This document shows positions 16,590 to 58,323 of a stretch of DNA of 64,000 bases, piece by piece. This DNA is from Methylobacterium sp. 77 (GTDB lineage: Bacteria; Pseudomonadota; Alphaproteobacteria; Rhizobiales; Beijerinckiaceae): assembly GCF_000372825.1 (NCBI RefSeq), contig NZ_KB910516.1, positions 2,140,011 to 2,204,010 of the forward strand. The letters run 5' to 3'. Each line of letters starts with the position of its first letter. Positions within the stretch are counted from its first letter, which is position 1. A model generated the notes under the pieces. That model did not search any database. It saw nothing but the letters and a program-made list of their open reading frames with translations, and had not been told where the DNA came from. A program made the position numbers and the translations under genes.

Positions 16590-16681
16590 GGAGACGTGGC
16601 CGAGCGGCTGAAGGCACTCGTTTGCTAAATGAGCATACCCCGAAAGGGGTATCGAGGGTTCGAATCCCTCCGTCTCCGCCA
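16590..16681 (+). tRNA. tRNA-Ser(GCT)
   Basis: A 92-base class II tRNA. The acceptor stem GGAGACG (16590-16596) pairs with CGTCTCC (16671-16677), followed by discriminator G and an encoded CCA at 16679-16681. The anticodon stem CTCGT/ATGAG encloses loop TTGCTAA with anticodon GCT at 16624-16626. The long variable arm (TACCCCGAAAGGGGTA) and the T-arm with GGTTCGAATCC are intact. Its 3' end from 16663 is repeated at 58257, marking it as the integration target of the downstream island; integration left the gene whole. Confidence 0.97.
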
Positions 16682-16729
16682 TCTACCCCAAGCCGCTGTA
16701 AGCCATTGGCAGACAAGTGGCTTTTTCTT
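16663..16729 (+). repeat. Left attachment-type direct repeat (attL)
   Basis: Begins within the T-arm of tRNA-Ser and runs past it. The first 26 bases (16663-16688) are identical to 58257-58282. Over 67 bases the two copies differ at only four positions, all transitions. This is the expected product of site-specific integration into a tRNA 3' end. Confidence 0.85.
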
Positions 16730-17086: not shown

Positions 17087-17875
17087 ATGTCTAACCAGGC
17101 TTTTTTCGATGCTGTCGCCGACGCGCTTGTCGAGCAGGGCGTCCGCGTCACCTATGACTCCTTGAACGATGCATTCAAAGAGCGTGACCGCGCCTCCGGA
17201 GGACGGGGACGTGGGAAATCGGATCGGGATCTCCAACGGCCGTTCGACGACTGGAAGAGGCGTCGTCGGTATCGTCCATACCTCGCTCATCTCGACCTGC
17301 CGGATGAGATGGACAAGGCGATTGCGTCCTTCGTTGAAAGGGCCATGAGCGTCGGTCGGCAACATCCCGCACCGAAACCTTCTGCACCGGATGCGAAGCC
17401 CGTTGGGCCGGCTGAAGGTGAGCCAACGCTAGGACAGCAGTTCGCCGAGTTCGCGGCCTCGGTGCAGGAGCAGCTGGATGCCCTTGCGGAAAATTATCGC
17501 TCTCTGCGAGACCAGGGCATCACGCCCTCTACCCGCCACGTAGATCCGCCCGCACTCAAGGAACCGTCTGCTCGCAAACGTGAAGGCCGTCGACGTGGTC
17601 TAGCCGCTGCGATGGGTCGCAAGTTCTGGGATGCCATGATGCAGGACTTTGTGAAGGCGATACGCAAACGCGGCCCCATGACGGCGACCCAGTTGCTTGA
17701 AACATTGGATGAAGATGCTCTCGCGATGGCAGAGGCCGCCTTTGAGCCGGTGACGGTCGTCACACTCACCGAAAAGGTCGATTTTCGGGTCAAGAAAGGC
17801 CGCTTCTTTCAACGGACGTCGGAAGGTCTTTACGACCTACTCCCGAGGCGTGCCGCCCGCGCCAAGAAAGACTAG
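17087..17875 (+). CDS. KfrA-like DNA-binding protein
   Basis: A 262-residue basic protein. Residues 1-65 (QAFFDAVADALVEQGVRVTY, then DLQRPFDDWKRRRRY) fit the KfrA N-terminal DNA-binding domain pattern: a helix, a short turn motif, and the closing W before a basic run. Residues 90-165 are Pro- and Glu-rich and may be partly disordered or coiled. The C-terminal part (LAAAMGRKFWDAMMQDFVKA, then KGRFFQRTSEGLYDLL) resembles a small winged-helix-like fold, which I cannot name. KfrA proteins are plasmid-borne regulators linked to partition; here it may control island genes. The assignment is by motif pattern only, so moderate. Confidence 0.6.
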   Translation: MSNQAFFDAVADALVEQGVRVTYDSLNDAFKERDRASGGRGRGKSDRDLQRPFDDWKRRRRYRPYLAHLDLPDEMDKAIASFVERAMSVGRQHPAPKPSAPDAKPVGPAEGEPTLGQQFAEFAASVQEQLDALAENYRSLRDQGITPSTRHVDPPALKEPSARKREGRRRGLAAAMGRKFWDAMMQDFVKAIRKRGPMTATQLLETLDEDALAMAEAAFEPVTVVTLTEKVDFRVKKGRFFQRTSEGLYDLLPRRAARAKKD

Positions 17876-18090: not shown

Positions 18091-19215
18091 ATGGCTTCGA
18101 CCACCCAGACTGATACCGGCGTGCATCGCTTCCTGCGCCGCTACGCCTCCGACCCGGAGCGGCTGGCAGCCGTTTTGGTGACCGAGTTCGACTTGGTCTC
18201 ATGCGCCGCCGATCACACTCTGTGCCGCGCGGGGGATGAGGCCGACTGCGTCTGGATCGTCGAGGACGGCGAATTCGGTATCCGCACCTCCCACAAGTTC
18301 ACCAGTCGCGGCCTGGGGGAGATCGTCGGCGAGGCCGCCTTTTTCAGGTTGCGACAGGATGGTGGTCCGGCCCGGCGCGGTGCGGATGTCGTCGCAACGA
18401 AGCGCTCGAAGGCATGGCGGATCGACCGGGCGGTTCTGGACGGCCTCGACCCGGAATGCAGGGCCATGTGGCTGGAGGCCATCTGCAGCGCCCTCGTTGC
18501 GAAGCTCGACGAGGCGACGGAGCACCGTGCGGCCCTTACCGGTGAGGTTGGGGACATCGAGGACGTGATCGGCCGCTTCGTTTGCTCGGATGGGGTCCAG
18601 GCCGCGCTCGGCGCCATGCGGGTATCCATCCCAAAGATCAGGCCGGTCAAAAAACACGTCGTGGCCTGGTTCAGCGATATCTCCGGGTTCTCGGCCCACG
18701 CGGTAGGTCTGGAGCCGGCGGCGACCGCGGATGCCGTCGAACTGCTGATGGAGCCCCAGGTCCGTGCGATCAGCGCGGCCGGCGGCCAGGTCGACAAGTT
18801 CCTCGGGGACGGCTTGATGGCTTGGTGGCCCGCGATGGACGAGGCCCGCCTGGCGAAGGCGGCGAACGCCGCGGCCATGGCGGCGCTGGCGTCCGTCGAG
18901 GAGGTCAGACGGATCGCCTCGGAAAACGGCTTCGAGATGGGCCTGCGGATCGGGTTGCATCTCGGCGAGGCCGTGGTCGGCGATTTCGGCGCGGCCGGGC
19001 GGAGTGCCTACACCATCATCGGCGAGACCGTGAACGCGGCGAGCCGCTACGAGCAGTACAAGCCCAAGGACGGGCAGCCGGACGGCCCCGTGCGCATCAG
19101 CGACCGGGTCTACGGACGCCTGCATGCCGACGGTAGGTCGCGGTTCAGTCCCGACCCCTTTGCGATGCCGGACAAGCACGGCCGCACCTATCCCGCTCAT
19201 TTTTCCATCGCTTAA
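18091..19215 (+). CDS. Cyclic-nucleotide-binding and class III nucleotidyl cyclase protein
   Basis: A 374-residue soluble protein with two domains. Residues about 20-125 form a cNMP-binding-like domain (GDEADCVWIVEDGEFGIRT, GEIVGEAAFF, then RRGADVVA in the place of the phosphate-binding cassette). Residues about 187-345 form a class III cyclase domain. The two metal aspartates are Asp196 (FSDISGF) and Asp240 (KFLGDG); Lys236 is kept, and GETVNAASR supplies Asn315 and Arg319. The position that is Asp in ordinary adenylate cyclases is Thr308, as in class IIIb enzymes. All catalytic residues are therefore present and activity is likely, but the base used (A, G, C or U) cannot be predicted. A GAGGG box precedes ATG 18091. 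The next gene starts 10 bases after the stop. Confidence 0.88.
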   Translation: MASTTQTDTGVHRFLRRYASDPERLAAVLVTEFDLVSCAADHTLCRAGDEADCVWIVEDGEFGIRTSHKFTSRGLGEIVGEAAFFRLRQDGGPARRGADVVATKRSKAWRIDRAVLDGLDPECRAMWLEAICSALVAKLDEATEHRAALTGEVGDIEDVIGRFVCSDGVQAALGAMRVSIPKIRPVKKHVVAWFSDISGFSAHAVGLEPAATADAVELLMEPQVRAISAAGGQVDKFLGDGLMAWWPAMDEARLAKAANAAAMAALASVEEVRRIASENGFEMGLRIGLHLGEAVVGDFGAAGRSAYTIIGETVNAASRYEQYKPKDGQPDGPVRISDRVYGRLHADGRSRFSPDPFAMPDKHGRTYPAHFSIA

Positions 19216-19224
19216 GGAACGGCC

Positions 19225-20835
19225 ATGGCCTGGGACAACTCGCGCAGCCGCGCGCGCATCGCCAACCTGATGGGGACCGTGCCGAAGGCGGCGGTTCTCG
19301 TCGAGACCTTCGACCAGGGCTATCTCGACCGGCGTCGGATCGACTTGGGGCGTCGCGGTCGTCGGCTCGGTCAGGACGAGGCACCGATCTTCAGCGTCCC
19401 GGACCGCCGTGCGGTTCTCGTCGACGGCGTCCATGTCTATGTGAACCTCATCGATTACCATGACGCGATGCTGGAGGAGGGCCGCGAGACGGAAGCCGCC
19501 CATCGCCGGGTCATGCAGTTCCTGCACCTCCACTACTCGGCCGCCGACCGGATCGTCGCCGACTACGAGGCACAGCGCGTCGACTTCCATGGGCCACGCC
19601 TGCATGCCGTAGTGGTGACGCCGCCCGGGGGAGGTAACGAACGACAGAGGGTCCTGCGCGCCATCGCGATGGCGAACGCCCTAAAGGACACCATCGAAAC
19701 GGCGGCTCCTCGCCTAGGTAAGACGAACCTGAACACCCGCGTGCGCATCGGAATCGATACGGGCAAAGCGGTCGCGATCAGCAGCGGCCGGAAGCATGAG
19801 CCGGAGCCGCTCTTCCTGGGGCGGCCCGCGAACCACGCCGCCAAGATCGCGGACGGCGACCGGCCGGGGATCTACCTGAGCGACAACGCCCGTGCCGTGG
19901 TCGGTCAGCCCCGGACAGGCTCCCTGTTCCACGAGCGTGCCACCGCGTTGTCCGACACGGAGCGTCTCGGATATCTCAACGAAAGCCTCGGACGCTCATT
20001 CTGGACCCAGGACAGCCAGCCGATCCGCAACCAGGTCGATGCCGCCGTGCGGTCACTGAAGGCGGACGCCGTGCTCATGGAGAGCCTGGCGACCGATGCG
20101 GTCTTCCGCTTCCACCATCACCCGCCGCCCCTGAGTACGGTCGATTTCGGCGACCTGACGCCGAGCTACTCCGTTCGAATGCCGATGATGTCGGTTTTCG
20201 CCGATCTGGACGGCTTCACCGCCTATGTGGACCGCTGCATCGCGACGAACCAGATCGCTGCCATGGTAGCCAACCTGCATTGCATCAGAGGCGAGCTCGC
20301 TGCGGTGGTGAAGCAGGACTTCGACGGTAGGAAGGTGCGCTTCATCGGCGATTGCGTCCACGGCATCGTCGCTGAAGGTACGCGCGTCGAGACCGACAAG
20401 GCGGCCTCGGTCGAGACGGCGGTCCGGATGGCGGGCGGCATCCGCAGTTCATTCAACCTGTGCCAGGCGATGCTGGGCGGCATCGATGACCTTGGCATAG
20501 CCATCGGACTGGAGCTCGGCCCGACGCCCGTGACGCGGCTCGGGATTCGTGGCGACCGCAGCGTGAGGTGCGCATCGAGCCGAGCGGTCTCGGGATCAGA
20601 GGCGCTTCAGAAGGAGTGCTCGGGAACGGAAACGAGCCTCGGCGAAACCGCCAAGGAAGCCGCTCACTTGCGGGTGAGGCAGATCTTCCGCTCGGGCAAG
20701 GCCGGCAACCTGGACTATGCGGCTGTCGAGGCATTGCTAGACAAGCCGACCGTGCCAACCGCAGCAAGGTCGGTGGCGGCCGCGCCTGCGGTAAGGCGGC
20801 CGGAGCCGGAGCACCGGTTCCATGGGAATGGCTAG
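19225..20835 (+). CDS. Tandem nucleotidyl-cyclase-like protein
   Basis: A 536-residue soluble protein made of two cyclase-like halves. The first (about 60-250) has the opening strand AVLVDGVHVYVNLID with Asp67 and the motif RVRIGIDTGKAVAISSG, but the second metal aspartate is not evident, so it looks degenerate. The second (about 318-460) has MSVFADLDGFTAYVD with Asp327 and RFIGDCVHG with Asp376. The usual Lys four residues before that Asp is Arg372, and the Asn/Arg segment is replaced by RGDRSVRCASSRA. The enzyme may use an altered nucleotide or be a regulatory partner of the upstream cyclase. It ends in FHGNG with a C-terminal glycine. AAGGA precedes ATG 19225. The 3' end overlaps the E2-like gene. 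Cyclase homology is inferred by eye. Confidence 0.72.
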   Translation: MAWDNSRSRARIANLMGTVPKAAVLVETFDQGYLDRRRIDLGRRGRRLGQDEAPIFSVPDRRAVLVDGVHVYVNLIDYHDAMLEEGRETEAAHRRVMQFLHLHYSAADRIVADYEAQRVDFHGPRLHAVVVTPPGGGNERQRVLRAIAMANALKDTIETAAPRLGKTNLNTRVRIGIDTGKAVAISSGRKHEPEPLFLGRPANHAAKIADGDRPGIYLSDNARAVVGQPRTGSLFHERATALSDTERLGYLNESLGRSFWTQDSQPIRNQVDAAVRSLKADAVLMESLATDAVFRFHHHPPPLSTVDFGDLTPSYSVRMPMMSVFADLDGFTAYVDRCIATNQIAAMVANLHCIRGELAAVVKQDFDGRKVRFIGDCVHGIVAEGTRVETDKAASVETAVRMAGGIRSSFNLCQAMLGGIDDLGIAIGLELGPTPVTRLGIRGDRSVRCASSRAVSGSEALQKECSGTETSLGETAKEAAHLRVRQIFRSGKAGNLDYAAVEALLDKPTVPTAARSVAAAPAVRRPEPEHRFHGNG

Positions 20836-21562
20836 CGGCTCGTTCGCGCTGGCAATCGCGGCGGCGCCCGACTGGTTCCGGATCGGCGCCACCTCCCAAA
20901 ATCGTGTCATCGGCCTAGCCGCGGTTCCCATCAACGCCGTGGAGGCGACGTTCGAGGTTGATCTTGAGGTTAGGACGGTCGGCAGGGCCGTCAGGGCTAG
21001 GGAACTCGTACCCGGAACTCGCTTCCCGATCCGGTGCTTCGAGCGGCATATCGAGGGGGAAGGCTGGTTCTGCCTCGGTCTCGCGGACCAGGTGGCCATC
21101 TTTGACGGGCAATCGGCCACGACCTGGTGGGAGCGGCTGGAAACCTACCTGCGCATGCAGCGTACGGCGACCAAGACCGGCCTATGGCCTGAGCATCACG
21201 CTCTCTCGCATGGCGAGGCTGGCCTCCATCACCAGAATGCCCTCGATCATGCCCGGAAGGCCGGCATTTCCGATGCCTATGACACGTTTATGCAGGGCGA
21301 CGCATCAGTGTTGACGGTACTCGATCCGCTTTTGCGGAAGGCGGGTGACCGGCTTCGAAACGGTCGCTGCCCGTGTCCTTGCGGGCGCAGGCGTCGGGAT
21401 GGGCAACCTTTTCTGAGGCGGAAATGCCCGCATCGCGAGGATGTAGTTGCGGTTCTGCGGGAGGAACGACTGCGCAAGGAGAAGCTGGCGGTCTTCGTCG
21501 AGACCACGAAGCGTTCGGGCATGTCCTGCTGCGGCACGATGCAGATATGTCCGCTGCGGTGA
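20822..21562 (+). CDS. E2 (ubiquitin-conjugating-like) domain protein with Cys-rich tail
   Basis: A 246-residue protein. Residues about 10-115 look like an E2 core: strands VEATFEVDLEVRTVG, then FERHIEGEGWFCLGL, which matches the E2 active-site pattern of a His followed seven residues later by Cys-Leu (His76, candidate catalytic Cys84). The tail (180-246) holds Cys183, 185, 187, 202, 236, 237 and 243 plus His204, with CPCPCG and KCPH resembling a SEC-C-type zinc motif. This combination recalls bacterial E2-domain, cysteine-rich proteins seen in conflict systems. The reading frame overlaps the cyclase gene by 14 bases (8 if ATG 20828 is used), so they are co-translated. No E1 or ubiquitin-like gene is nearby. 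Confidence 0.7.
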   Translation: MGMASGSFALAIAAAPDWFRIGATSQNRVIGLAAVPINAVEATFEVDLEVRTVGRAVRARELVPGTRFPIRCFERHIEGEGWFCLGLADQVAIFDGQSATTWWERLETYLRMQRTATKTGLWPEHHALSHGEAGLHHQNALDHARKAGISDAYDTFMQGDASVLTVLDPLLRKAGDRLRNGRCPCPCGRRRRDGQPFLRRKCPHREDVVAVLREERLRKEKLAVFVETTKRSGMSCCGTMQICPLR

Positions 21563-21729
21563 CATGGTTCGGACGCGGACGAGCCCCCCAAGGGGCCGAC
21601 GAGGCATGGGCCGGCGGTGCGAGGCGTTGAGCCTGCGGCGTCTTTCACCATAACTTTCAGAACGGCTACCCGACCGAATCATGCGATGGTACGCTGATCC
21701 GCGAATTGGCTTACAGTGGTAGATCGACC

Positions 21730-22044
21730 ATGACCGCAACATTTGGCTCATACATCGTGAGCAGGAGAAAAGAACTTGGCATTAGCCAAAAGGAACTTGC
21801 CAGTAAAATCCTGAAGGAAGAAGACGGCAAGCCTATTACGCCTCAGTATCTTAATGACATTGAAAAAGACAGGCGACAGCCAAATTCGGAGCATATCATC
21901 AATCAATTTTCAAAGGCGCTTGAAGTAGAGGCCGATTATCTGTTTTATCGTTCTGGAATATTCCCTGCCGATGTGAGACAAGCAAATATGCCTCGTGAAG
22001 AGGTCGTGCAGATGTTCCGGGCCTTCAGGCGAACGGCAAAATAG
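21730..22044 (+). CDS. XRE-family helix-turn-helix regulator
   Basis: A 104-residue protein with a single Cro/C1-type helix-turn-helix at about residues 5-65 (SYIVSRRKELGISQKELASK, then YLNDIEKDRRQPNSE). The gene is noticeably more AT-rich than its neighbours, which suggests separate origin. It is followed after 10 bases by an ImmA/IrrE-type peptidase gene. This pairing is a known derepression module in which the peptidase inactivates the repressor. It may control the cyclase/E2 cluster or itself. Confidence 0.9.
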   Translation: MTATFGSYIVSRRKELGISQKELASKILKEEDGKPITPQYLNDIEKDRRQPNSEHIINQFSKALEVEADYLFYRSGIFPADVRQANMPREEVVQMFRAFRRTAK

Positions 22045-22054
22045 GGTTCACGAC

Positions 22055-22771
22055 GTGATCTCTTGGGTGGACGACAGGACTGGCCGCTTTGGTAAACGCC
22101 CGTACTACCGGGAGAAGGACCTCGACAGAGCCTGCGAGGTCATGGTCCGGCGCCTGCTGCAGGATAAGGTCGGATGTGTTCGGTTCCCGCTTACGACCGA
22201 CGAGTTATTCGTCCTCGTCGAGCAACACGTCTCCGACCTCGATGTTTATGCCGATCTGACGGATGAAGGCTTTGAGGTAGAGGGCGCCACCGACTTCGCT
22301 GTCGGAAAGCGCCCGGCCATCAAGGTCTCCGAAAAACTGTCAGCCAGCGAGGGACGGGAGAACCGGTACCGGACGACGTTAGCCCATGAGCTCGGCCACG
22401 CGGTCTTCCACGACGAGGTGTTCCAGTTGCGCTTCGCGTCCGGGGATCTGCTAAGCGACCGAGGCGAGGCACGCATCGTTTGCAAGCGCGAAACGATGAT
22501 TGACGCCCCTCAGGTTGATTGGATGGAATGGCAGGCGTCCTACGCCAGCTGCGCGTTTCTCATGCCGAGGGAGGCGATGTCTGACCTGCTCCGGCCGCTC
22601 GTGGTCGCAAGCGGTAAGCTGGCGCCGTTCCGTGTGGGCTCCGAAACCGCGAACGTCCTGATTGCAACCGTGATCGACGCTTTCGCGGTGTCGCGAGATG
22701 CTGCAAGGGTGCGGTTGACCAAACTGAACTACCTATCGGACAAGCCCGTGGCGGCGACGCTCTTCGACTGA
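22055..22771 (+). CDS. ImmA/IrrE-family metallo-endopeptidase
   Basis: A 238-residue soluble protein with the zinc motif HELGHAVFH at residues 111-119 in the sequence TLAHELGHAVFHDE. The downstream part (YASCAFLMPREAMSDLLRPL) matches the ImmA/IrrE fold, where a third acidic ligand follows the motif. The start is GTG at 22055, ten bases after the XRE stop; an ATG at 21995 would overlap the regulator by 50 bases and gives an implausible basic N-terminus. Family members cleave their partner XRE repressor in response to DNA damage or phage-related signals. The N-terminal 40 residues are basic and may bind DNA or the repressor. Confidence 0.88.
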   Translation: MISWVDDRTGRFGKRPYYREKDLDRACEVMVRRLLQDKVGCVRFPLTTDELFVLVEQHVSDLDVYADLTDEGFEVEGATDFAVGKRPAIKVSEKLSASEGRENRYRTTLAHELGHAVFHDEVFQLRFASGDLLSDRGEARIVCKRETMIDAPQVDWMEWQASYASCAFLMPREAMSDLLRPLVVASGKLAPFRVGSETANVLIATVIDAFAVSRDAARVRLTKLNYLSDKPVAATLFD

Positions 22772-22979: not shown

Positions 22980-24518
22980 TCATACGGAGCCCGCACCGGT
23001 CTCCAAGAACTTCACGATGGTGCGGACCCGCTTCGCATGGAAAATGGCGTCCGCCGGGTACGTCTCGCCACCGTACTCATCCTCCAAGGTCGTCCCGAAG
23101 TGCACGAAGGCGAGACCGAGCTCCGGGTTGGAAAGGTGTAGCAGGACCAGGAGCCTTCGTCCGTCCGGCAACATGGCCTGTTGTCCCCATCGCATGGGAA
23201 GTGACACGACGGTCCCCATGAACTGGAATAGGACCCCGTCCTTCTCCAGTTGGGCGAACACAGGGTCCAGGCCAGCTTCCCGGATCATGGCCGCGAGCCA
23301 ACGCTTCTCGACTTGCCGTTTCGCCCCCTCCTTCAGATAGGAGCGTTCGCCCCTTGCAACCTCATGGAAACCGAGCCCCTCCTCTCTGACGCCCTCCTCG
23401 ATCTCGTTGTCCATGGACTGCATGACGTGGGCCGGGGGTGGTCCCAGTACGCCCGTGCGAGAAAGTTGCAGGGTCCGATCAAGGTTGTGGTTACGGGCAA
23501 GCTGTTCGAGCTCGAAACTCCAGATCGACCCCGGGACTACCCAGATGATGAGGTCGCGATAGAGGGGATCCTTCCGCGTCTTCTCGAAGCGGTCCAGGGT
23601 CCGAATGATCTTCCCAGTCCACTCGACGACCTGGCGCTCAGCAGCCTTCACCACGTCATTGTCGTAGGCCCACTCATCCTCGTCGGCGTCGAAGCAGGCC
23701 GCCACGGGAAGCAGGACGGCACGAGAGCGGCCGACCCTGCCGAAGATCCCAACGACATGACCACTGAGCTTGAGGCGAGGCCCCGGCCTGAACATCGGCA
23801 GGTACTCCCTCATCCACGCATCGACGTCGGCGATGAAGGTCTCGGCTATGGCCGCAAAATCGTCCGACGAAGGTTTTGTCGGTACCTCGACCCGGGCAAC
23901 GACTTTGAGGGCGACGATGTCTAGGCCTGGTCCGAGATACTCCAAGGTCTCCGGCGCCTCCGGCGGTGGCACCACCCGGAAGTACACCGTCTTCGAGGAA
24001 CGGCCCTCCCACGCTCCTTCTACCTCGAATGCCGCCGTCCCATCGGAGGTCTCGACCACGGCAATCGCCTTCCCAGCGCGACGAACGATGCGTGCGCCGC
24101 CACGGGCATGGCCCGGACTGACGGCCAAGTGTTCGTCGGATGCGGAAGGTCCGAGGCAGGCGCGTCGCTCCTGCTGCCATCGGGCGATGCCGCCGGCGTC
24201 GGCGAAAGCCGAAACACGGCCATTCTCAGAATCGGTGCATCCGTGCTTGGGCCAGGGCTGCCCCAGGTGATTAAAGAAGACCCGACCGCCATTCGCGGCC
24301 ATGAAGAAGAACACCGGGTCACCGCAGACCGGGCAACGCGCGTTCGGAATGGTGACGTTGCGCGAAACCGAGGACGCGTCGTCGTGCCCGTAGACCCTCA
24401 TCTCCGGACGAGGGACTCCGGCCGGCCAGTCATCCCGGCTGACGCTATGGTCGCTGACCCAAAATGTCGTGCCGTTCTGGTTGGTCCGGTAGTGACCCGA
24501 CCTGTCGAACTTCGTCAT
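22980..24518 (-). CDS. Unknown protein with N-terminal Cys/His cluster
   Basis: A 512-residue protein I cannot assign to a named family. It starts with MTKFDRSGHYRTNQNGTTFW. A likely zinc cluster follows: Cys62-x2-Cys65 (CPVCGDPVFFF), then VFFNHLGQPWPKHGC with His84, His92 and Cys94. Residues 100-320 include a possible beta-rich domain, and 330-512 hold mixed strands (FMGTVVSLPMRWGQQAMLPD). No transmembrane helix is evident. The upstream frame continues to 24563, but ATG 24518 fits best. It is the last gene of the minus-strand defence operon, 91 bases after the helicase stop, so it may be an accessory or nuclease-like subunit; that is inference. Confidence 0.7.
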   Translation of the reverse strand: MTKFDRSGHYRTNQNGTTFWVSDHSVSRDDWPAGVPRPEMRVYGHDDASSVSRNVTIPNARCPVCGDPVFFFMAANGGRVFFNHLGQPWPKHGCTDSENGRVSAFADAGGIARWQQERRACLGPSASDEHLAVSPGHARGGARIVRRAGKAIAVVETSDGTAAFEVEGAWEGRSSKTVYFRVVPPPEAPETLEYLGPGLDIVALKVVARVEVPTKPSSDDFAAIAETFIADVDAWMREYLPMFRPGPRLKLSGHVVGIFGRVGRSRAVLLPVAACFDADEDEWAYDNDVVKAAERQVVEWTGKIIRTLDRFEKTRKDPLYRDLIIWVVPGSIWSFELEQLARNHNLDRTLQLSRTGVLGPPPAHVMQSMDNEIEEGVREEGLGFHEVARGERSYLKEGAKRQVEKRWLAAMIREAGLDPVFAQLEKDGVLFQFMGTVVSLPMRWGQQAMLPDGRRLLVLLHLSNPELGLAFVHFGTTLEDEYGGETYPADAIFHAKRVRTIVKFLETGAGSV

Positions 24519-24609
24519 GCTTCGCCTAGACGGGACAGGGGAAAAGGCTGGGCGCGAACTCACTCGTCACGCCATATTCCTGGTTTCGTCGCCTAAACCG
24601 AGAGCACGA

Positions 24610-27357
24610 TCACCAGCCTTTGCGCATGAACTCCTCGATATCCCGGGACGAAATGATGCGCTCGGTCCCTTCCCAGTTCAGGCCGATGTCATCTGCGATA
24701 TCCCGGAAGTAGCGCCGCTCGACGGGCGACCGGATCTGCTCCACCCGCGTGGGAAACAGCTTGACCGCGTCTCGGTCCTTGAGGACGGCATCGACCCACT
24801 CGTCTTCGAATGAATCGGGAAGCTGGCCGAGCACCTTGAAGATGTCCTCGAACCGTTCCGAGAGGGCTCCGTATACCTCATCCTCGTAGGTGCCGGCGTA
24901 GCGGAGGTTTGCGACGTGGATCTCGGGTCGCGGCTGTCCGATACGTTGGATACGACCCTTGCGCTGTTCCAGCCGTGAGGGGTTCCAGGGCAGATCGACG
25001 TTCACCTGCGAACCAAGGCGCTGCAGGTTCAACCCCTCGCAAGCGGCGTCGGTTGCGGCCACCAGCTTGATCCCCCCGGTGCGTACGAGTTCTTTGATGA
25101 CGTTGCGATCCGTCCGGCGGCGCTCGCCGCCGTGGAGAACGAAAGAGCGGCCGCCGCCCGCGTAGATGGCAACCGCCTGATCGGGAAAGCGTGCGGCCAG
25201 CCCCATGCCAACGAACTCAGCGGTGTCGAAGAACTGGCTGAACGCGATCATGCCGTGATCGGCAAGCCAGTTGTTGTCGGTGAGGTAGCGGATGATGACC
25301 TCGACCTTGGGATCTCGTTTCCCACGGTCGAGTACGGCGAGGAGGTGCGTCTCGACCTCGCGCAGAGCAGCCACCTCGTCCGGCGTGAGCGGCATGCGCT
25401 CGCGCTCCTGGGCGTAGAGATCCTCGTCCTCGTCGTCGATGGCCGAACCGGTGATGGCCCCGGCGAGTAGAGCCCGTGTTGTCGACAGCCCCGCCGCAAC
25501 CGACGAGCCGATCCGACGTAGCAGGATGGTCTTCATGAACCCCGCCGCAGGGCGGGTGCGGGCATACAGGCCACAGAAGCGTATCGCGGCATCGTAAGCC
25601 TGGCGGAACGAGAAGCCCATCTCCAGCCCCTCGCCGGAGAAAAGTTCGGCCGGGAGCCCGTCGCCGGCCCGCGGGTGCACGACCACGCCGATCTTTGGCA
25701 GGAGGCCAGCATTCTCCAACATCGGACGGGACCGTCGTATCACGCGCCGAATGATGGGATTGGTCTGCGCCACCAGAGTCGGAAACTCGTTCCGCAACCT
25801 GCTTTTCTGCCCCTGCGAGAGATCATCATACCGGGGCCCGTCGACGCGTGCGTCGGGCAGCCGATGCCCCGTGCGCAACACCTTGTAGAAGCCAGCCTCG
25901 CCCCCCGGTGGAAGGGGGTTGCGGAGGAGCGCCCATTGGTCGGTGGGGTCCTCTGGCCACGGCTTCTCGCCCGTGAGGTAGCCGATGCTGTCGTCGGACG
26001 ACCACCCCCGGCTACCCTCCTTGCCGAGGACGTGGGTCGTACCCTTGGCCAGCATGACGATGAGGTCGTGCAACTCGACCGCTTTCAGCTGGATGGGCGT
26101 GGCGGTCCCGATGATGACGTTGTCGGAGTTGGCCGCAAGCCGCTCCATGAAGTCCAACAGGCGTTTGGCACCGACTCGGGCATCGTCCTTCCCGCTGCGG
26201 TCCGCCCTGGCCTTATGCGCCTCGTCGAGGATCACCACCCCGAAGTGCCGGTCCCGCAGGTGCCGGATCTCGCCATCCTCGTCTCCACTGACGATCAGCC
26301 CGGTCGAGACGATGCCGACGCGCATCGGACAGCGGGCGACCGCGCTGGCGTCGCCCTTGGGCGACACGGCGAATTCCTTGCCGTCGAGCCACTGCTTCTT
26401 GGCCGAGGACCAGATGGCGGACGGAAGCCCGAGCATGTCCTCCAACTCGGTCTGCCACTGCCGCGTCAGGGTGGCCGGCGCCAGGATAAGCACGCCGCCT
26501 CCCGAGAGGAGTGACAGCACCAGAGCGGCCGCGGCCATGGACAGGGTCTTGCCAAGTCCGACGTCGTCCGCGATCAGGAAGCGCGCCTTGCCGTATAGGG
26601 CGTGGTCGTCGACGCATGCCTGGACGAAGCGCTTCTGCCAGGGGCGGAGGATCTGGCCCGTCTTGTAGATCGGTCGTTCGACCAGGGCGGCGGCAGGATT
26701 GGAAAGACCCCCCTCCTTCCGGGCTTGTTCGATGGAGCCGTACTCAAGACGTTGCGAGACCGCGCCGATGTGGCTGATGACCGCCTCCGGCAGGTCGACG
26801 CCCAGGTCCCAGAAGTGCTCGAACTCCTCCCGCACCCATTGGGTCGCCTCAGGCGCGTCATCCTCCCAAAGGATCTCGTATGAGTGCAGTAGGCCGGTGG
26901 CGCTCTCGTTCATGGAGCCGACGAAAGCGGTCGAGCCGCCGTCGCGGAACTCCATGATGCCGGCCTTACCGTGGACGAACACGTTCGTGCCGTCCCGTGG
27001 CACGACCTTCACTCGCATGCGCCCGGACGCGAGCAGGTCGTGAAGGATGCGATAGCGGCCTTTGGCGAGAAGCTCTTCGATGCTGGACTGTCCGGCCATC
27101 CAGCCAGAGACAAGGGCACGCGACAGGGCGTCGGAACCCTCGCTGGCGGCCTTGGCGATTCTAACGTCGTTCGGATCGAGCTCGGCGTTGCACACCACCC
27201 GGATCTCATCGACGCCGGAGAGCTCCTCCGACATGAGCTCCAAGAGCGACGACCGGAAGTATCCGGCGATGCGCAGGTAGCGGCGCGAGCGCGAGAGCCG
27301 CTCGCCCAGGACGTCACGCAGGGGCTCGCGACGAGAGGAGTGACGCAACATGACCAC
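24610..27357 (-). CDS. Phospholipase D-like / SNF2-type helicase fusion
   Basis: A 915-residue protein. Residues about 10-185 are a PLD-type nuclease-like domain with one HxK motif (VHGKAG, His129 and Lys131) followed by FVGSMNESATG with Asn150. From about 235 on it is a superfamily 2 SNF2-like ATPase: motif I DDVGLGKT (264-271), motif II DEAH (378-381), motif III GTATP, and the C-terminal lobe with IAFSQFFDTAEF and NLQRLGSQVNVDLPWNPSRL, RKGRIQRIGQ. The start is GTG at 27357 with GGAG seven bases upstream; ATG 27351 is an alternative. This protein type goes with DUF499, DUF1156 and DUF3780 genes and is thought to act against phage DNA. Confidence 0.9.
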   Translation of the reverse strand: MVMLRHSSRREPLRDVLGERLSRSRRYLRIAGYFRSSLLELMSEELSGVDEIRVVCNAELDPNDVRIAKAASEGSDALSRALVSGWMAGQSSIEELLAKGRYRILHDLLASGRMRVKVVPRDGTNVFVHGKAGIMEFRDGGSTAFVGSMNESATGLLHSYEILWEDDAPEATQWVREEFEHFWDLGVDLPEAVISHIGAVSQRLEYGSIEQARKEGGLSNPAAALVERPIYKTGQILRPWQKRFVQACVDDHALYGKARFLIADDVGLGKTLSMAAAALVLSLLSGGGVLILAPATLTRQWQTELEDMLGLPSAIWSSAKKQWLDGKEFAVSPKGDASAVARCPMRVGIVSTGLIVSGDEDGEIRHLRDRHFGVVILDEAHKARADRSGKDDARVGAKRLLDFMERLAANSDNVIIGTATPIQLKAVELHDLIVMLAKGTTHVLGKEGSRGWSSDDSIGYLTGEKPWPEDPTDQWALLRNPLPPGGEAGFYKVLRTGHRLPDARVDGPRYDDLSQGQKSRLRNEFPTLVAQTNPIIRRVIRRSRPMLENAGLLPKIGVVVHPRAGDGLPAELFSGEGLEMGFSFRQAYDAAIRFCGLYARTRPAAGFMKTILLRRIGSSVAAGLSTTRALLAGAITGSAIDDEDEDLYAQERERMPLTPDEVAALREVETHLLAVLDRGKRDPKVEVIIRYLTDNNWLADHGMIAFSQFFDTAEFVGMGLAARFPDQAVAIYAGGGRSFVLHGGERRRTDRNVIKELVRTGGIKLVAATDAACEGLNLQRLGSQVNVDLPWNPSRLEQRKGRIQRIGQPRPEIHVANLRYAGTYEDEVYGALSERFEDIFKVLGQLPDSFEDEWVDAVLKDRDAVKLFPTRVEQIRSPVERRYFRDIADDIGLNWEGTERIISSRDIEEFMRKGW

Positions 27358-27377
27358 CGGCTCGCTCCAGCCCGCCC

Positions 27378-30305
27378 TCAGACCTTGTCGACTTCGAGGC
27401 GCTGGCCGAGAAGGTCGGCCGCAGAGCTCTCAACAGGTCGCGTTCTCGTGGTCTTGGTTGAGACGTACTTAGCGAGCGCGACAAGCTTGGCCCGGTTAGG
27501 CCAGTAATCCTGCCCTAGTTCCGTCTTGAGAAATGCCAATCCCTCGCGCGGGTCGTCCTTCTGCATCGTCTTGTGCGTCGCGAAGAGCACGCGGCGCAGG
27601 GGAGACGTCCCGAAGCCCTTGCCGCCTAGCATCCTTGCCTTCAGCGCACCCGCACCTGCGAGCGAAGCTGCGTTCGCCTTGGTCGAGTCCATCAGATCGG
27701 CGTAGTCCGCAACAGAGAAGGTTCGGGCGAAGTCCTGATAGTCGGCGAACTTAGTCGTGCCCTTGCTCTCCATGTCGAGCATGCGAACGTAGAACCGAGA
27801 CGGCGCATCGAGGTCCCGCCACATGGCAGGGGGGAAACCATCTGGAACAAGCTTGTTGTTGGCGACTGAGGCTGCGTACTCGATCAGCTCGCGGATAACG
27901 GTCTTCTCTCCCTTCTCAAGCTTTCGGTAAACATCCGCACCAACTTCCTTTCGGTCGATGGTGGCATATGTTGTTATCACTCTAAGCGCTGCAGCATAAG
28001 CTGCAAGCTGAAGATCGCCGTCCGTATATAGTCTCTCGAATGTCCAGTCTTCATCAAGGGCATTTAGCGAAGATAGCTGATGGTCAACTGCCTCCTCAAT
28101 TTCCCCTTCAATGTCCATGCGCTTGATATTTCCCGATAGCACGCGCTTACGGAGCACAAGGAGAATTGTTCCCTGAACGTAATTACCTTCTCTTAAAGCG
28201 CTTTCGGTCTCGGTGACTATGTTCCAGGCTGCGGAAACACGCAGACCAGCAGCCCACATGATAGCAGCAAGATCAGCCCAAACACCCGCATCCTGGTGAG
28301 TGAACATAACCACTTGCTGTCCGTCGTCAGGCATATGGTTCGCCATCGCCCGATAAGCGGCAATCATATCAGATCGGAATTTTTCATCACTACCTTTGAT
28401 CGCGATTGGACGCTGCGAGTCCCAGGTCCACTTATCGAATGGCGGATGCGGACGGCGACTAAGCCAAGCGATAAAGAATTCTGTTATTTCATGGTAATTG
28501 ACAGCATCTGCGTAAGGCGGATCGGTAACAAAGATGTCAGCATTGAATAAAATATCGCTTGCAGGATGAGAGTTTACTACGCCTATTGTCCCGATGTGAG
28601 AATATCTCCGATCCTCGTCAATGAACGTTAGCATGTTATATGCAGCGTAACTCCCATAAGTGTAATACGTATTGAGTGCTTGGTTTGCAAATACATTTGC
28701 AGGCGCATCGGCGCGACTTGCGGAGGGTATCCACGTATTCAGTTTCGACGATCTGTCCAGCATGCGAGCTAAAATGATGTTCATCAAAGGCGATGAAGCA
28801 ACCTTGTTGAATTCAGCAAAAAACAGGAGTTGCCGCGCAGTGTATAGGTGATGCCAATAAGTCCATCCACGCGTACGAATTGGCTCGTCCGTTTTGCCAC
28901 CCCGTTGAATTTTCATCTCTGGTACGAGACCTGCACTTTGCCACCGTGCAAGGTTCTCACCAACTATAGCGTCCACCTGATTTTCTCGAACCAAATCTTC
29001 TTCAGTGACGCCAGCGAAGAACGTTTCCTGACGACCGCCATCAACCCTTGGGTTTCTTATCCATTGTATACAATACAAACGCTCTTGGAAAACATCGTCC
29101 GGCAGAGGCTTGTAATCTTCCTTTTCCCACATACGCAGGCCGTTACCGTTTAGACCCTCCGAACGAAAGTCCCCTCTGATAACCTTCACCGCGACGCCAT
29201 CTCGGTTCGGGTTCATTGGGTGAACCAAGCAGCCGCCTACAATGGTACCGCGCTCTGCACTGGCCATCGATGCAGCATCAACGCCGCTTTCGACGATTAT
29301 GTCATATGTTTTACTTGCTTCATTGGGAACAAGTTTTGCTATAACATTCTTTTGCTTAGAAATTACCCACGATGGAGCCATTGGCACCATCCACCCAGTC
29401 TTTGGACACTTGGTCTCCAGACAATATAGATAAGCTTTTGCTTTGTTTCCAGAGCTATTACGCTCGATCCCTAAACGGTCAATTTCGGCTGCAACTAAGT
29501 CCGATACTCGGCGCTGCTCCACCTGAATGATAGTTCTGTCCTCAGGAGCCGACCCAATTATATTAAAGCCGCCCCAGGTAAGCATGCAGGCGATAGGGTT
29601 TAGGTCCGATGCATACACATCGCATCCCATGCGCGCCGCTTCGAACGGGATTGAACCTCCGCCGCAGAACGTGTCCGCAACTCTAGGTCTATGACCATAG
29701 CGCATAATTCCAAGCTGTTCGATCAACTCCGCCATTGATTTGGCGGATGTACCGAGATGTTCGTTGATTATACGCCAGGCAGGTGCGCCTATAATTAAAT
29801 CACCTACTTCTTCCGGACGGTGAGTATATGATAACCGACTGTCGTAAGGAAGCGTAGAAAGCCATTGGGCGATCAAAGTGTCGCGCTCGTCACGCTTCAA
29901 CGTTTCCCGCCAACGTGCTCGACCGGCCGCATTAATATCAACTAAATCGCCGTAGAGATCAAAATCTGTGGCAATATCACTTGGCTTAATTGACTTTATT
30001 CTTTGAGCGAAGCTGGAGTCATCCATGCCCATTAGCAGTAGGAATACGCGAAGGTCATTTACTGGATCAACCGTTGCCGGCAATAAACATCCGAGCAGCG
30101 TTGCACGCACAAGGATTAGCGGCTTGCGTCCTTTCCAGTAAGCCCCAAGAGAGGTTAGAGTCTGGCCTTGTTTAGCCATTCTTTCTTTGTAAGCTTCAGC
30201 CGATATTCTCCCAACGGGAAATTGCGCTTCGATAAACGATGGCGCATCCTTGAGGGAATACGGAGTCACCGCGGGTTTCCTCTCAGCATGATGATGGATG
30301 TTCAC
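27378..30305 (-). CDS. DUF1156-family DNA methyltransferase
   Basis: A 975-residue DNA methylase. The DUF1156 start is visible at about residues 24-45 (FIEAQFPVGRISAEAYKERM). Motif I for S-adenosylmethionine is VADTFCGGGSIPFEAA (209-224) and the catalytic motif is DPPY at 595-598 (TDPPYADAVNYHE), which points to an amino-methyltransferase acting on adenine N6 or cytosine N4. Target site unknown. Its ATG overlaps the DUF3780 stop by four bases (ATGA, 30302-30305). The stretch from about 28.0 to 30.3 kb is much more AT-rich than the 3' end of the gene and its neighbours, a sign of mosaic origin. In the defence cassette it probably marks self DNA. Confidence 0.9.
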   Translation of the reverse strand: MNIHHHAERKPAVTPYSLKDAPSFIEAQFPVGRISAEAYKERMAKQGQTLTSLGAYWKGRKPLILVRATLLGCLLPATVDPVNDLRVFLLLMGMDDSSFAQRIKSIKPSDIATDFDLYGDLVDINAAGRARWRETLKRDERDTLIAQWLSTLPYDSRLSYTHRPEEVGDLIIGAPAWRIINEHLGTSAKSMAELIEQLGIMRYGHRPRVADTFCGGGSIPFEAARMGCDVYASDLNPIACMLTWGGFNIIGSAPEDRTIIQVEQRRVSDLVAAEIDRLGIERNSSGNKAKAYLYCLETKCPKTGWMVPMAPSWVISKQKNVIAKLVPNEASKTYDIIVESGVDAASMASAERGTIVGGCLVHPMNPNRDGVAVKVIRGDFRSEGLNGNGLRMWEKEDYKPLPDDVFQERLYCIQWIRNPRVDGGRQETFFAGVTEEDLVRENQVDAIVGENLARWQSAGLVPEMKIQRGGKTDEPIRTRGWTYWHHLYTARQLLFFAEFNKVASSPLMNIILARMLDRSSKLNTWIPSASRADAPANVFANQALNTYYTYGSYAAYNMLTFIDEDRRYSHIGTIGVVNSHPASDILFNADIFVTDPPYADAVNYHEITEFFIAWLSRRPHPPFDKWTWDSQRPIAIKGSDEKFRSDMIAAYRAMANHMPDDGQQVVMFTHQDAGVWADLAAIMWAAGLRVSAAWNIVTETESALREGNYVQGTILLVLRKRVLSGNIKRMDIEGEIEEAVDHQLSSLNALDEDWTFERLYTDGDLQLAAYAAALRVITTYATIDRKEVGADVYRKLEKGEKTVIRELIEYAASVANNKLVPDGFPPAMWRDLDAPSRFYVRMLDMESKGTTKFADYQDFARTFSVADYADLMDSTKANAASLAGAGALKARMLGGKGFGTSPLRRVLFATHKTMQKDDPREGLAFLKTELGQDYWPNRAKLVALAKYVSTKTTRTRPVESSAADLLGQRLEVDKV

Positions 30306-30949
30306 GCGAATGCCTCCAGTCGACCCGAGATGGCCCTGAGCGCGGCGAACTCGTTGCGCTTCTGCGCGACGTCAGGCTGTTGAGTGGCGCCTGTGTTCTT
30401 CCTCGGTGGCAAGTGCCCCCGACCTGTCATGACCCCAAGGGAGAACACGTCGCGCTTCGTCCCAAAGCAAAGGGCCTTACGCAAAGCGTCGCGCCAGCCC
30501 ATGCCGACCTGGTGCGAGTAGCCCGTCGAGGCGGCGGTCATGGTGTAGAGCCACCAGCGCTCCTCCGGCTTGAGACCAAGCCAGTTCCGGATGGCCACAT
30601 CGCAGTGCTCCACGGACACGTCGTCCTGCTCGATGGCCCAGACCAGGACCAAGAGCTCCTTACCAAGCAAGCGCTGGACGCCGTTATTTCCCTGAGCCCA
30701 CGAGCCCGAACGCTTGCGTTCGGTCTTGAGGCGCCGATTGAACTCAGAGCGCACCTCGCCCGAGACAGCGTCCCATTTTGCCTTAGGGAGCTGGGCTCGA
30801 AGGATCACCTCCGGAGAAAGAACCGGATCGGTCGCGACCGGAGGGCGACCGAATACCTCGAAGACGTCGACCGTCTCCTTCGTGGCCCGTGGCACCTGCA
30901 CGAGGTAGCAGTGCTCGACGTAGTAGTCGGTGCAATCGAAGTCCGCCAT
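30302..30949 (-). CDS. DUF3780 protein, defence-cassette associated
   Basis: A 215-residue soluble protein of the DUF3780 family, recognised by ADFDCTDYYVEHCYLVQVPR at its start and the GLKPEERWWLYTMTAAS block near residue 126. No catalytic motif is known. It is always found beside DUF499 and DUF1156 genes as far as I recall, and is thought to be a structural or specificity subunit. It starts 11 bases downstream of the DUF499 stop and overlaps the methylase by ATGA, so it is part of the same operon. Confidence 0.85.
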   Translation of the reverse strand: MADFDCTDYYVEHCYLVQVPRATKETVDVFEVFGRPPVATDPVLSPEVILRAQLPKAKWDAVSGEVRSEFNRRLKTERKRSGSWAQGNNGVQRLLGKELLVLVWAIEQDDVSVEHCDVAIRNWLGLKPEERWWLYTMTAASTGYSHQVGMGWRDALRKALCFGTKRDVFSLGVMTGRGHLPPRKNTGATQQPDVAQKRNEFAALRAISGRLEAFA

Positions 30950-30959
30950 GATGCTCCCC

Positions 30960-33900: not shown

Positions 33901-34073
33901 CCGTTCCGGACAAGCGCATTTAGACCCTCCGTAAAGTGGTTGCGCCGGAAGAATGCGTCGGCGTCGATCTTGCCCTTGTGCAGGTCGTCTAGGTTGGCGA
34001 TCTGATCGACGAGACCGTCCTTCGAGACGATGTCGCTGAGTTCGCAAAGCTGCCGTACGCTCTGAATGGCCAT
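30960..34073 (-). CDS. DUF499-family large ATPase
   Basis: A 1037-residue AAA-type ATPase. Walker A is GGGKTH at residues 78-83 (YLSQSMGGGKTHSLIAFALL) and Walker B is LLDE at 171-174 (GPVLILLDELPSYLQ), with an arginine-bearing stretch RIRETYPFHPSIRDIVARFK near 305. The C-terminal 450 residues form a mixed region with no named domain. DUF499 proteins accompany DUF1156 methylases and are thought to drive DNA translocation or complex assembly in anti-phage systems. ATG 34073 lies three bases from the stop of the small ribbon-helix-helix gene, so expression is coupled. Confidence 0.9.
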   Translation of the reverse strand: MAIQSVRQLCELSDIVSKDGLVDQIANLDDLHKGKIDADAFFRRNHFTEGLNALVRNGFDRLSGRTGDGAFYLSQSMGGGKTHSLIAFALLAQDDGLRHRIIPNIAPTATFGSAKVVIFNGHQNPSNFLWGEIADRLGRPEAMTRFWKDGAKTPGVDDWVEALGDGPVLILLDELPSYLQMAEGQAVGNSTLADITIGALERLFNALSQLPRACVVVTNLIDDVFAEGSGKLKTLINTLNKQYGKYAQAITPVQQNSGEVFQIIRKKLFDKLPDGDVIDEIAQAYVDELNRAKKVDDVPSIPESFIARIRETYPFHPSIRDIVARFKENPGYQQTRALIRILRLAVRNAWASDDSIFLIGLQHLDLNHPGTVEEIRKINNHFTNAISKDIADRGNALAEQVDAGEGSSTATSVAKLVLMSSLSTAEQPILGLRRSEIIECLIDPLTRTPAISTALDRLSGNAEYLFKGPDERIYFGQTANVVSEINNTATSLAEEVVDQELRNKLAEVFEPKTKALYNKNLAILPSLDEIKVGDEDVTLIIVERPAQSLPPALVDWWKKLDRQNRVLILTADLNSLGSLRTIARQMRAISIVEKAIASRHGKETSQMREVEAIKGRAANSFTSAVRETFTTLVFPTGSGLRDYGQFRMEFDNNDYRGEEQILKTLESRGKYYPAAKLEAEIATLREEAEHELFDADAVQRGELRRKAAAKAGWYWLSSGGLDHLVAESVRTKHWRERNGLVEKKFERVTSVTVRLEGSLDAALEKGVYKLIVTPEEADTVYASETGHPDPTVSGKVVGRSYETSATRAWFLPVDSRGEAKSGPPVEWLAPVKLTAHAASTSTGTIIDWTVVPRLAQVRASFDGSDPAQAAVVTSPLSVPTSAKEVRLLPMIDGRSGEEVRLALGGGSQAPQPSREIRDDRPLLLRHALRFDSITRLTDAMTALQAATGASVRGGQIEIGTVDSDVFADITFGEGVAMTAEAVTAVIASVSQSGGFTASRASASFNETRFASGKDYKVFADAVGLDFETMKWAQDEGV

Positions 34074-56691: not shown

Positions 56692-58137
56692 TCAGCTCGT
56701 CCTGGTCTTCCGTCGGCGCGGCGTCAGCGCCTGCGCCTCTGTCACCGGACTGCCGTCCAACGGAGGCAGCATGACCTTGGCGACCGCGATCTTGGCGGCG
56801 GCCATCTCGGGGCCTTCCGAGTAGCGCCCGAGCGTAAGGCCGGAACGCTTATGCCCGACGATGGCGGCGAGCAGGTCGCCATCGACCGCGGCCCGCTCGG
56901 CCTTGGTGATGAACCACCGGCGGAAGCTATGGAAGTTCACCAGCGAGCGCCGCTTGCCCTCGACCTGCTCATCCACACCGAGAGCGCGTCGGTACTTCGT
57001 GAAGCGCTTGGAGAAATAGGCGCTCCTCTCCCGTATCGACCCCTTCGCCACTGCTGCCGGCCATTCCGGAAAGAGATCGTCCTCGGGGGCCTTGCCCATG
57101 GCGCGGCCGGCGACCATCGCCTTCAGGGCAGAATGGATCGGGACGTCCCGAGCTGACTTCTCCTTTTTCTGCGGCTTGAACGTGAACCAGCCGTCGGCGC
57201 ACTCGCCGACCCTAAGGTCGATCACGGCGTCCAGGCGGGCGCCCGTAAGTGCAGCGATCAGCATGACGTCCAGCATGCCGGGGTCGGCCTTGCTCATCAG
57301 AAGCGTCTGGACCTCTGTGTCGGTGAAGGCGCGCTCCTCCTCGTCGTGGTCGACGGACGGCTTTTCCAGGTGCAGGTCGGCGAACACATTCCGGTCCACC
57401 GGAGTGCGCAGGACGAGGTAGGTCCAGTAGCGCCGCAGCCGGCCAAGGTACTTCGTGGCAGTGGCCCAGCCGAGGCCCGTGAAGTCCTGCAGCTCGTCCA
57501 TGAAGCGGACTGCGGCCTTGACGTCGAACCGCTCCAGGTAAGGGGGAACGTCCCGAGCCGCGCACCATTCCAGAAGGATCTTGAGCGCCCTGGGGTCGTC
57601 CGTCAGCGACCGCTCCTTGATTTTCAGGGTCTTCATGAAGGCGGGATGATGCAGGGCGATGGGCGTGGCCGTACCGCGAGCCACCGCTCCGAACTGTGCC
57701 GCCTTTTCCTTCGCCTCGCGAGTGGGCACCTCGAACTCGAAGACCTCACCATCCTCGTCCAGATCGGTCTCGGTTCGAGAACCGGCCGACCATATCTCGG
57801 CTTCCCGGTCCCGCAGAGCGGCCGCGTAGTAGTCGTACGCCTGATCGCCTGGCTTGCCAGAGTGGGCGAGGATGCCTGCCCAGGCGGTCGCCTCCTGCAA
57901 CTCCGACCCCTTTCGTCCTCCCAGGGTAAGCCAAGCCTTATCGAGGCGCGCCTTGAAGTCCTTGACGATGGGACCCTTCAGGACGTTGGCCGAGAGCAGC
58001 GATTTGGTGCCCAATCCTTGCTTCAGACGGGCGCAGCCGACGAGCGACCGCAGAGGCGCAGGCACACCCATGCTCACGCGGTAATACCCGTCATGAAGCT
58101 CCAGATAGGCGTTCCTTGGGTCCGGCTTGCGAGGCAC
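56692..58137 (-). CDS. Tyrosine recombinase (island integrase)
   Basis: A 481-residue phage-type integrase beginning at GTG 58137 with a strong GGAGG box five bases upstream; the frame extends to 58218 but only this start has a proper site. The core helical DNA-binding domain lies at about 160-265 and the catalytic domain at about 272-450. Catalytic residues are Arg301 (TGARLDAVIDLR), His403 and Arg406 (FHSFRRWF), His429 (IVGHKRSG) and Tyr439 (LGRYSEG). It lies next to the right direct repeat and reads away from it, typical for tRNA-targeting islands. It should catalyse integration and excision at tRNA-Ser. Confidence 0.93.
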   Translation of the reverse strand: MPRKPDPRNAYLELHDGYYRVSMGVPAPLRSLVGCARLKQGLGTKSLLSANVLKGPIVKDFKARLDKAWLTLGGRKGSELQEATAWAGILAHSGKPGDQAYDYYAAALRDREAEIWSAGSRTETDLDEDGEVFEFEVPTREAKEKAAQFGAVARGTATPIALHHPAFMKTLKIKERSLTDDPRALKILLEWCAARDVPPYLERFDVKAAVRFMDELQDFTGLGWATATKYLGRLRRYWTYLVLRTPVDRNVFADLHLEKPSVDHDEEERAFTDTEVQTLLMSKADPGMLDVMLIAALTGARLDAVIDLRVGECADGWFTFKPQKKEKSARDVPIHSALKAMVAGRAMGKAPEDDLFPEWPAAVAKGSIRERSAYFSKRFTKYRRALGVDEQVEGKRRSLVNFHSFRRWFITKAERAAVDGDLLAAIVGHKRSGLTLGRYSEGPEMAAAKIAVAKVMLPPLDGSPVTEAQALTPRRRKTRTS

Positions 58138-58256
58138 GAGGTCCTCCGGTGGATAAGGGGCCTTATGACCCCGATATGTCCCGAGACATGTCCCGGAATC
58201 CTCCGCCAAGCCAAGCACTTATATGGTTAACAAGGGCTTAGCAGAGGGTCTCGGAC

Positions 58257-58323
58257 AATCCCTCCGTCTCCGCCATCTACCCTAAGCTGCTGTAAGCCAT
58301 TGGCAAACAAGCGGCTTTTTCTT
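58257..58323 (+). repeat. Right attachment-type direct repeat (attR)
   Basis: Copies the tRNA-Ser 3' end from 16663. Identical for 26 bases (58257-58282) and near-identical to 58323, with four transitions. The downstream flank still resembles the left copy (TTTGACC, then GTGGAAAACTCTGG), which is more than a minimal crossover site would give. Confidence 0.85.

Follow-up and report, generated by a model that had tools for sequence, protein, structure and literature searches.

A Pycsar-type locus of Methylobacterium sp. 77 in which a long cyclase adjoins, and may be coupled to, a lone E2-like protein

What would a lone E2-like protein do beside two class III nucleotide cyclases? The question is raised by a cluster of five genes in a stretch of 64,000 nucleotides (the window, in which positions are counted here) from Methylobacterium sp. 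77 (contig NZ_KB910516.1, positions 2,140,011 to 2,204,010 of the forward strand), part of a single-contig 4.66 Mb genome. An initial annotation made from the letters alone had described five open reading frames (ORFs) side by side on the plus strand, class III cyclases adjoining a lone E2, likened them to Pycsar (pyrimidine cyclase system for antiphage resistance) and type II CBASS (cyclic oligonucleotide-based antiphage signaling system), and judged that the system looks undescribed. The five ORFs and their domains are confirmed by Pfam and PADLOC, the pairing of cyclases with an E2 is borne out by Pfam, by the PADLOC PycC and E2 models and by a structure model of the E2, and both comparisons were apt. 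Rather than being an unrelated system, the cluster represents a variant of Pycsar defence, and its parts were already filed (two PADLOC PycC hits, a PADLOC E2 and two named Pfam families). The coupling, in which tails of the cyclase change along with the conjugation module and a cyclic-nucleotide-binding (CNB) cyclase takes the effector's place, was not found described in the literature searched, and among the papers listed by partly unspecific searches none showed a link of Pycsar to E2, E1 or JAB. On balance, the locus probably encodes an E2-coupled Pycsar-type system, in which cyc2 would make the signal, the E2 would act on the tail of cyc2 and cyc1 would be the receiver. The closest named relatives of the E2 and the cyclases are from Methylobacterium and Methylorubrum, and the cluster is composed as follows.

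18091..19215, plus strand: cyc1, cNMP-binding domain and class III cyclase, 374 amino acids (Pfam cNMP_binding and Guanylate_cyc; PADLOC PDLC00734 PycC, 536 bits)
19225..20835, plus strand: cyc2, long tandem-domain PycC, 536 amino acids (PADLOC PDLC00762 PycC, 634 bits; 6YII, 303 bits)
20815..20832, plus strand: final six codons of cyc2, R-F-H followed by G-N-G, the proposed E2 recognition site (loose tail motif; overlaps the start of the E2 gene)
20822..21562, plus strand: E2-ntca and E2-Crich protein, 246 amino acids (PF20298, 74 bits; PF20272, 47 bits; PADLOC PDLC00875 E2, 331 bits)
21730..22044, plus strand: XRE-type helix-turn-helix (HTH) regulator, CapH-like (HTH_3; PADLOC capH, 20.7 bits, weak; HTH_VI, 32.3 bits)
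21995..22771, plus strand, start unsure (21995 or 22055): ImmA/IrrE (M78) peptidase, CapP-like (Peptidase_M78; PADLOC capP, 33.7 bits, weak)

The genes of cyc2 and the E2 overlap by 14 bases. PycC models cover both cyc1 and cyc2 over the whole length of each, and the solved Pseudomonas aeruginosa PycC (6YII) matches cyc2 as well. Five residues of cyc2 (N203, K207, D327, R372, and D376) are kept in all 47 aligned long-PycC rows, in which the cyclases of L038 (split by an insertion sequence) and L039 (a short ORF) are left out, as they are from the trees below; their roles are presumably those known for other class III cyclases. Both metal-binding Asp residues (D327 and D376) lie in domain 2, and N203 and K207 lie in domain 1, so one composite active site is predicted for cyc2, a PycC-type class III cyclase with the conserved metal and catalytic residues of a Pycsar enzyme. 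The 6YII protein is placed in PycC clade A, and clades A–D are stated to make cyclic UMP (cUMP) (PMC11224242); the kinship with clade A makes cUMP the likeliest product of cyc2. In L038 (4282-6965), an IS3 element interrupts the tandem cyclase and the E2 ORF is intact.

The association with the E2 recurs well beyond the window. Loci (numbered with an L) were fetched around E2-ntca matches and around long-PycC matches, and 51 long-PycC loci were examined; 16 of 20 plasmid E2 records were covered directly and that of P. aeruginosa plasmid p382 (L074) through its cyclase match (H12, H17, and H20 were left out), as were 24 of 28 long-PycC cyclase records (all except H32, H40, H43, and H47). Near copies occur among them (L046, L047, and L074; L043, L080, and L081; L075–L078; L051 and L073). 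The partner of the long PycC is an E2 in 42 of the 51 loci and a ThiF (E1) protein in the other nine, and a recognised Pycsar-type effector (PycTIR, PycTM, another CNB protein or a Tle1-like protein) lies near 37 of the 42 E2 loci. Conversely, a long PycC stands directly beside the E2 at 42 of the 45 E2-match places examined, and among 397 genomes of the order the same seven carry a long PycC and an E2-ntca match above the cut-off. The E2 as a chance neighbour of the cyclase is rejected on these counts. The remaining three places comprise a damaged copy of the E2 and two matches under the Pfam cut-off.

L012: damaged E2 copy
Behind L028: match under the cut-off, with a stop inside
L030, 1036-3268: match under the cut-off, near an ORF that is patatin-like by eye

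The last of these, with its patatin-like ORF, is perhaps a CBASS locus. In L074, an E2 ORF (5434-6207) overlaps the end of the annotated pycC, and the incomplete PLSDB table lists no gene there.

The two genes meet at the end of cyc2, and its tail is the proposed site of recognition by the E2. The tail of the window cyc2 ends in EPEHRFHGNG, in which RFHGNG fits only the loose form of a motif written after the tails had been viewed ([RKQATS][APSF][HYF]x(2,10)-end) and not its strict form ([RKQ][AP][HY] or APY). At first look the loose motif fits 37 of 37 E2 loci, L038 and L039 included (2000 composition shuffles: mean 5.8, maximum 14), and the strict motif fits 31 of 37 (mean 1.3, maximum 6). 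In 37 distinct tails anchored on the motif, the information reaches 2.6 bits (R/A/K/Q/T), 2.9 bits (P/A) and 3.5 bits (H/Y), versus 0.8–2.1 bits in the 25 preceding columns. The loose motif also fits L064, found later, as well as L074 and L080–L082, close kin of earlier E2 loci, giving 42 of 42 E2 loci. In these 42 loci the motif takes the form [RKQATS][APSF][HY] with two to nine residues after it, and the last residue varies, for which reason a terminal Gly as the common tail feature, the first idea, was rejected. Among the 120 cyc2 homologues listed, judged on tails alone, 79 fit the strict motif, 12 more the loose one, 12 end in HA and three in [FY]G, and the other 14 match none of these, most being close variants (RGH and YPH, for example).

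Where the partner is ThiF, the tail differs. The loose motif fits none of the seven ThiF-locus cyclases tested, and those of L076 and L078 have final letters identical to those of a tested cyclase, giving none of nine; these cyclases end in Ala (seven of nine) or Ser (two of nine), as HA or GFS. The ThiF proteins of L051, L053, and L055 match PADLOC E1-E2 models at about 600–660 bits; Pfam finds Prok-E2_B and ThiF in L051, ThiF with E2-E1mid under the cut-off in L053, and in L055 only ThiF of the ThiF/E2-E1mid pair, and the other six proteins were assigned by phmmer similarity to that of L051. Two of the nine loci are damaged (L076 is rearranged and its cyc1 and ThiF are fragmented, and the ThiF of L078 lies in two ORFs). 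A JAB gene is also present in L053 and L055, whose cyclases (at 7542 and 7413) end in -GFS, where the Gly, two residues before the terminus, might be exposed by JAB.

The tail also served as a predictor of the partner. The HA-tailed homologue P0033 matched Agrobacterium loci carrying ThiF, so ThiF was forecast for the GRHA-tailed loci of the genus Methylobacterium, and then found. A search of 99 genomes of the genus with P0033 gave matches in eight, at nine places, the window being one; cyc1, cyc2, and ThiF occur together in all five P0033-like loci with GRHA tails (two of them damaged), and three other loci have TPY tails with E2 and TIR. On trees built from the tail-less cyclase core (85 rows under LG+G4 and 57 rows under a mixture model, with L076 and L078 outside both and nine further locus rows outside the second), the partner changes three times and the tail class six times. 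Tail and partner change together in three of three independent pairs (sign test p 0.25, a direction and not a proof), on trees with several weak branches and with warnings about long ones. Taken together, the tails suggest that the E2 may act on the tail of the signal-making cyclase.

How it would act depends on the E2 itself. C72, R75, H76, and C84 are invariant in 38 rows, in the order C72-x2-RH76-x7-C84, as is the CC...C of the Cys-rich end, and Cys84 is the probable catalytic residue. The structure model (pLDDT, the predicted local distance difference test, 90) matches E2 enzymes with weak scores and near ties, those of CBASS first: the top VIA matches are Cap2-CdnD and CdnG-E2, tied with other E2s (Z differences below 1 being counted as ties), and 8YJY/8HSB are among the near-top matches. 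The scores of eukaryotic E2s come near those of the E2s from CBASS, and the fold therefore gives CBASS no special standing. A search of PDB sequences with the E2 profile gave a lone match (E 0.3), to a zinc regulator, and one tblastn scan detected no E2 in viral contigs. The E2 might instead be a non-covalent chaperone or inhibitor that grips the cyc2 tail without any conjugation, an alternative that we hold to be rather unlikely. Two observations suit it and weigh against an E2 enzyme at work on the tail: no E1 was found, the ThiF domain being absent from the window operon and its sole match in the genome lying ~400 kb away, and the last tail residue is not conserved, with the motif's H/Y followed by two or more residues, which differs from a free C-terminal Gly. 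The enzyme-like invariance of C72, H76, C84, and the CC...C end, however, argues for catalysis, as does the replacement of the E2 by ThiF proteins elsewhere.

If cyc2 gives the signal, what receives it? The initial annotation had seen no CD-NTase, E1, JAB, TIR, or membrane effector, which held true among the 15 window proteins scanned, and none of the reference effector types was found near the cluster. Cyc1 carries a CNB domain (~36-117) and a class III cyclase domain (~188-345) but, by Pfam, no toxic domain. In 28 aligned rows, D196, K236, D240, N315, and R319 of the cyclase and E81 and R96 of the CNB domain are invariant, with roles presumably as known for these families, and where a base-specifying Asp/Thr is usual, these rows nearly always have Ala. 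In PycTIR, cUMP is read through Arg138 and Asn143 (PMC11224242); cyc1 has Lys at the place of Arg138 and, at that of Asn143, mostly Thr/Ser (ungapped) or a non-Asn residue with a MAFFT gap.

A recognised effector (here a CNB-TIR, PycTM, a WYL-linked CNB protein or a Tle1-like protein) is found in one of 12 loci with cyc1 versus 38 of 39 without it (Fisher p 3e-9, the loci not being independent). The exceptions are L040, with cyc1 and a Tle1-like gene, and L038, with neither; L013 runs into the end of its contig. With cyc1 and the recognised effectors so rarely present in one locus, cyc1 would replace the effector, and it is proposed to stand in the effector's place as a nucleotide-gated cyclase. 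A pair of WYL regulator and CNB protein lies on the opposite strand beside cyc2-E2 in L026, L029, L033, L041, L042, L048, and L049. The locus could also be an ordinary Pycsar whose killer is encoded elsewhere or by a neighbour (17087-17875 or 22980-24563), with cyc1 merely a second cyclase. For this speak a separate small cyclase paired with cyc2 in 11 of the 51 loci, all 11 of which also have an effector, and the ORFs neighbouring the cluster, which are uncharacterised; both tell against cyc1 as the receiver. The small cyclase never occurs together with cyc1. Yet the mutual exclusion of cyc1 and recognised effectors holds in 11 of the 12 loci, and the minus-strand neighbours resemble a separate anti-phage set, which leaves the ordinary Pycsar a doubtful choice.

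Returning to the E2-coupled system, comparative evidence supports a putative tail-directed partnership of E2 and cyclase with cyc1 in the effector's place, and a sequence of events can be proposed. Upon infection, cyc2 would make a cyclic nucleotide; the E2 would recognise the short C-terminal motif of cyc2 and, through Cys84, link cyc2 to itself or to another protein, or at least hold it, and this action may keep cyc2 in a ready or a restrained state, much as CD-NTases are handled by Cap2 or by the E2 of CBASS. The signal would be received by cyc1, a CNB domain fused to a second cyclase in place of a TIR or membrane killer, through which it might be relayed or amplified, or the nucleotide drained, while the XRE and ImmA proteins would control expression as CapH and CapP do. 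We infer the covalent chemistry, the messengers, the trigger and the role in phage defence from these comparisons. A bolder extension, which seems to us improbable as it stands, is that Pycsar cyclases are a second, unrelated class of immune cyclases under ubiquitin-like conjugation, in which a stand-alone E2 without E1 would take the R-[A/P]-[H/Y] near the cyclase end in a transpeptidase-like manner, with loss of the variable last 2–9 residues, and a nucleotide-gated cyclase would relay the alarm instead of a killer. If the E2-coupled system exists as proposed, ubiquitin-like control of immune cyclases would have arisen around both CD-NTases and class III cyclases, which are unrelated enzymes, and conjugation would be a general means of arming alarms based on nucleotides. 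The reading also draws attention to the E2 as a neglected third gene beside the long PycC, including that of the P. aeruginosa plasmid, and a nucleotide-gated cyclase as effector would be a new output.

The initial annotation had also counted the XRE regulator and the ImmA/IrrE peptidase among the parts of the cluster; both genes are present. An HTH repressor gene stands beside an M78 peptidase gene in the window, in the gene order of CapH/CapP, and clear homologues of both lie upstream of cyc1 in L009, so that the pair occurs in two of the 51 loci, the window included; L054 has a different ImmA gene upstream and L034 has ImmA and HTH genes ~3 kb away. By these counts, the pair is an optional regulator, and its standing as a core part is not supported. 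One source describes CapW or CapH with CapP as controlling adjacent operons, Pycsar and CBASS included, and describes repressor cleavage by a peptidase activated by single-stranded DNA for CapH/CapP only (PMC13373217). The window shares with that arrangement an M78 peptidase gene downstream of an HTH gene and differs in its weak scores, in the other position taken in L009 and in the rarity of the pair.

Does the setting of the cluster fit a role in defence? A mobile island and a second defence cassette nearby, both part of the initial annotation, were recovered.

16663..16720, plus strand: left att-like repeat, the 3' end of tRNA-Ser(GCT) and bases beyond
22980-34073, minus strand: second cassette, with DUF499, DUF3780, DUF1156, PLD-helicase and an unassigned protein of 527 amino acids (NCBIfam)
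56692..58218, minus strand: integrase-like gene beside the right repeat (DUF6538 above the cut-off, Phage_integrase just under it)
58257..58314, plus strand (G000:C1:2198267-2198324): right att-like repeat, 93% identical to the left

The island is supported by these repeats and the integrase-like gene; the left flank matches most of the same-genus relatives searched, up to the end of the tRNA-Ser. The repeat was not found when the search spanned 16400-40000 only. In the second cassette, the best NCBIfam matches of four genes are anti-phage models (DUF1156 above the cut-off, the three others below). A general stress-signalling module on mobile elements, without a part in immunity, would agree with the lack of Asn at the cUMP-specific place in the CNB domain of cyc1, a point that counts against a Pycsar-type receiver. 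This is the least probable of the explanations weighed here: the kin loci adjoin annotated Pycsar effectors, several of them, on plasmids, lie close to toxin-antitoxin genes or other genes of defence, and the same island holds the anti-phage-associated cassette. In L046, PycTIR-PycC-E2 also adjoins a DUF499/DUF3780/DUF1156 set. The island further contains an AAA and Peptidase_M41 (FtsH-like) protein (51846-53882, plus strand) and, in a stretch of lower GC content, an ORF of 667 amino acids without a Pfam match (54613-56616, plus strand).

Set beside known systems, the locus shares with Pycsar (PycC with PycTIR or PycTM) the long PycC, kin to 6YII, and related E2 loci with PycTIR or PycTM; it differs in the E2 directly after the cyclase, in a CNB domain fused to a cyclase and in the window's lack of any TIR or TM effector found. 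A type II-short CBASS, CdnG-E2 of Serratia marcescens, was reportedly described by Yan in 2024; the window likewise has a lone E2 with its cyclase, and its E2 model has 8YJY/8HSB near the top of its matches, whereas the cyclase is unrelated and the window E2 has an added Cys-rich domain. With type II CBASS (CD-NTase, Cap2 E1-E2 and Cap3 JAB), a better studied bacterial counterpart of human cGAS immunity, the common ground is a cyclase beside a conjugation enzyme (an E2, by weak fold scores, next to the cyclase), a tail class tied to the partner, and sister ThiF loci that match E1-E2 models, two of them with JAB. The differences are a class III cyclase instead of a CD-NTase, an E2 without E1 or JAB in the window, and a tail motif that is internal in the E2 loci and not a conserved terminal Gly/Ala. 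In operons that contain Cap2 and Cap3, but not in those of other architecture, the C-terminal Gly/Ala of CBASS cGAS enzymes is conserved; this residue is needed for conjugation (PMC10097602), and reversible conjugation of a CBASS cyclase is reported (PMC11153139). By analogy, the partner-linked tails of the long PycC cyclases appear to mirror those of CBASS.

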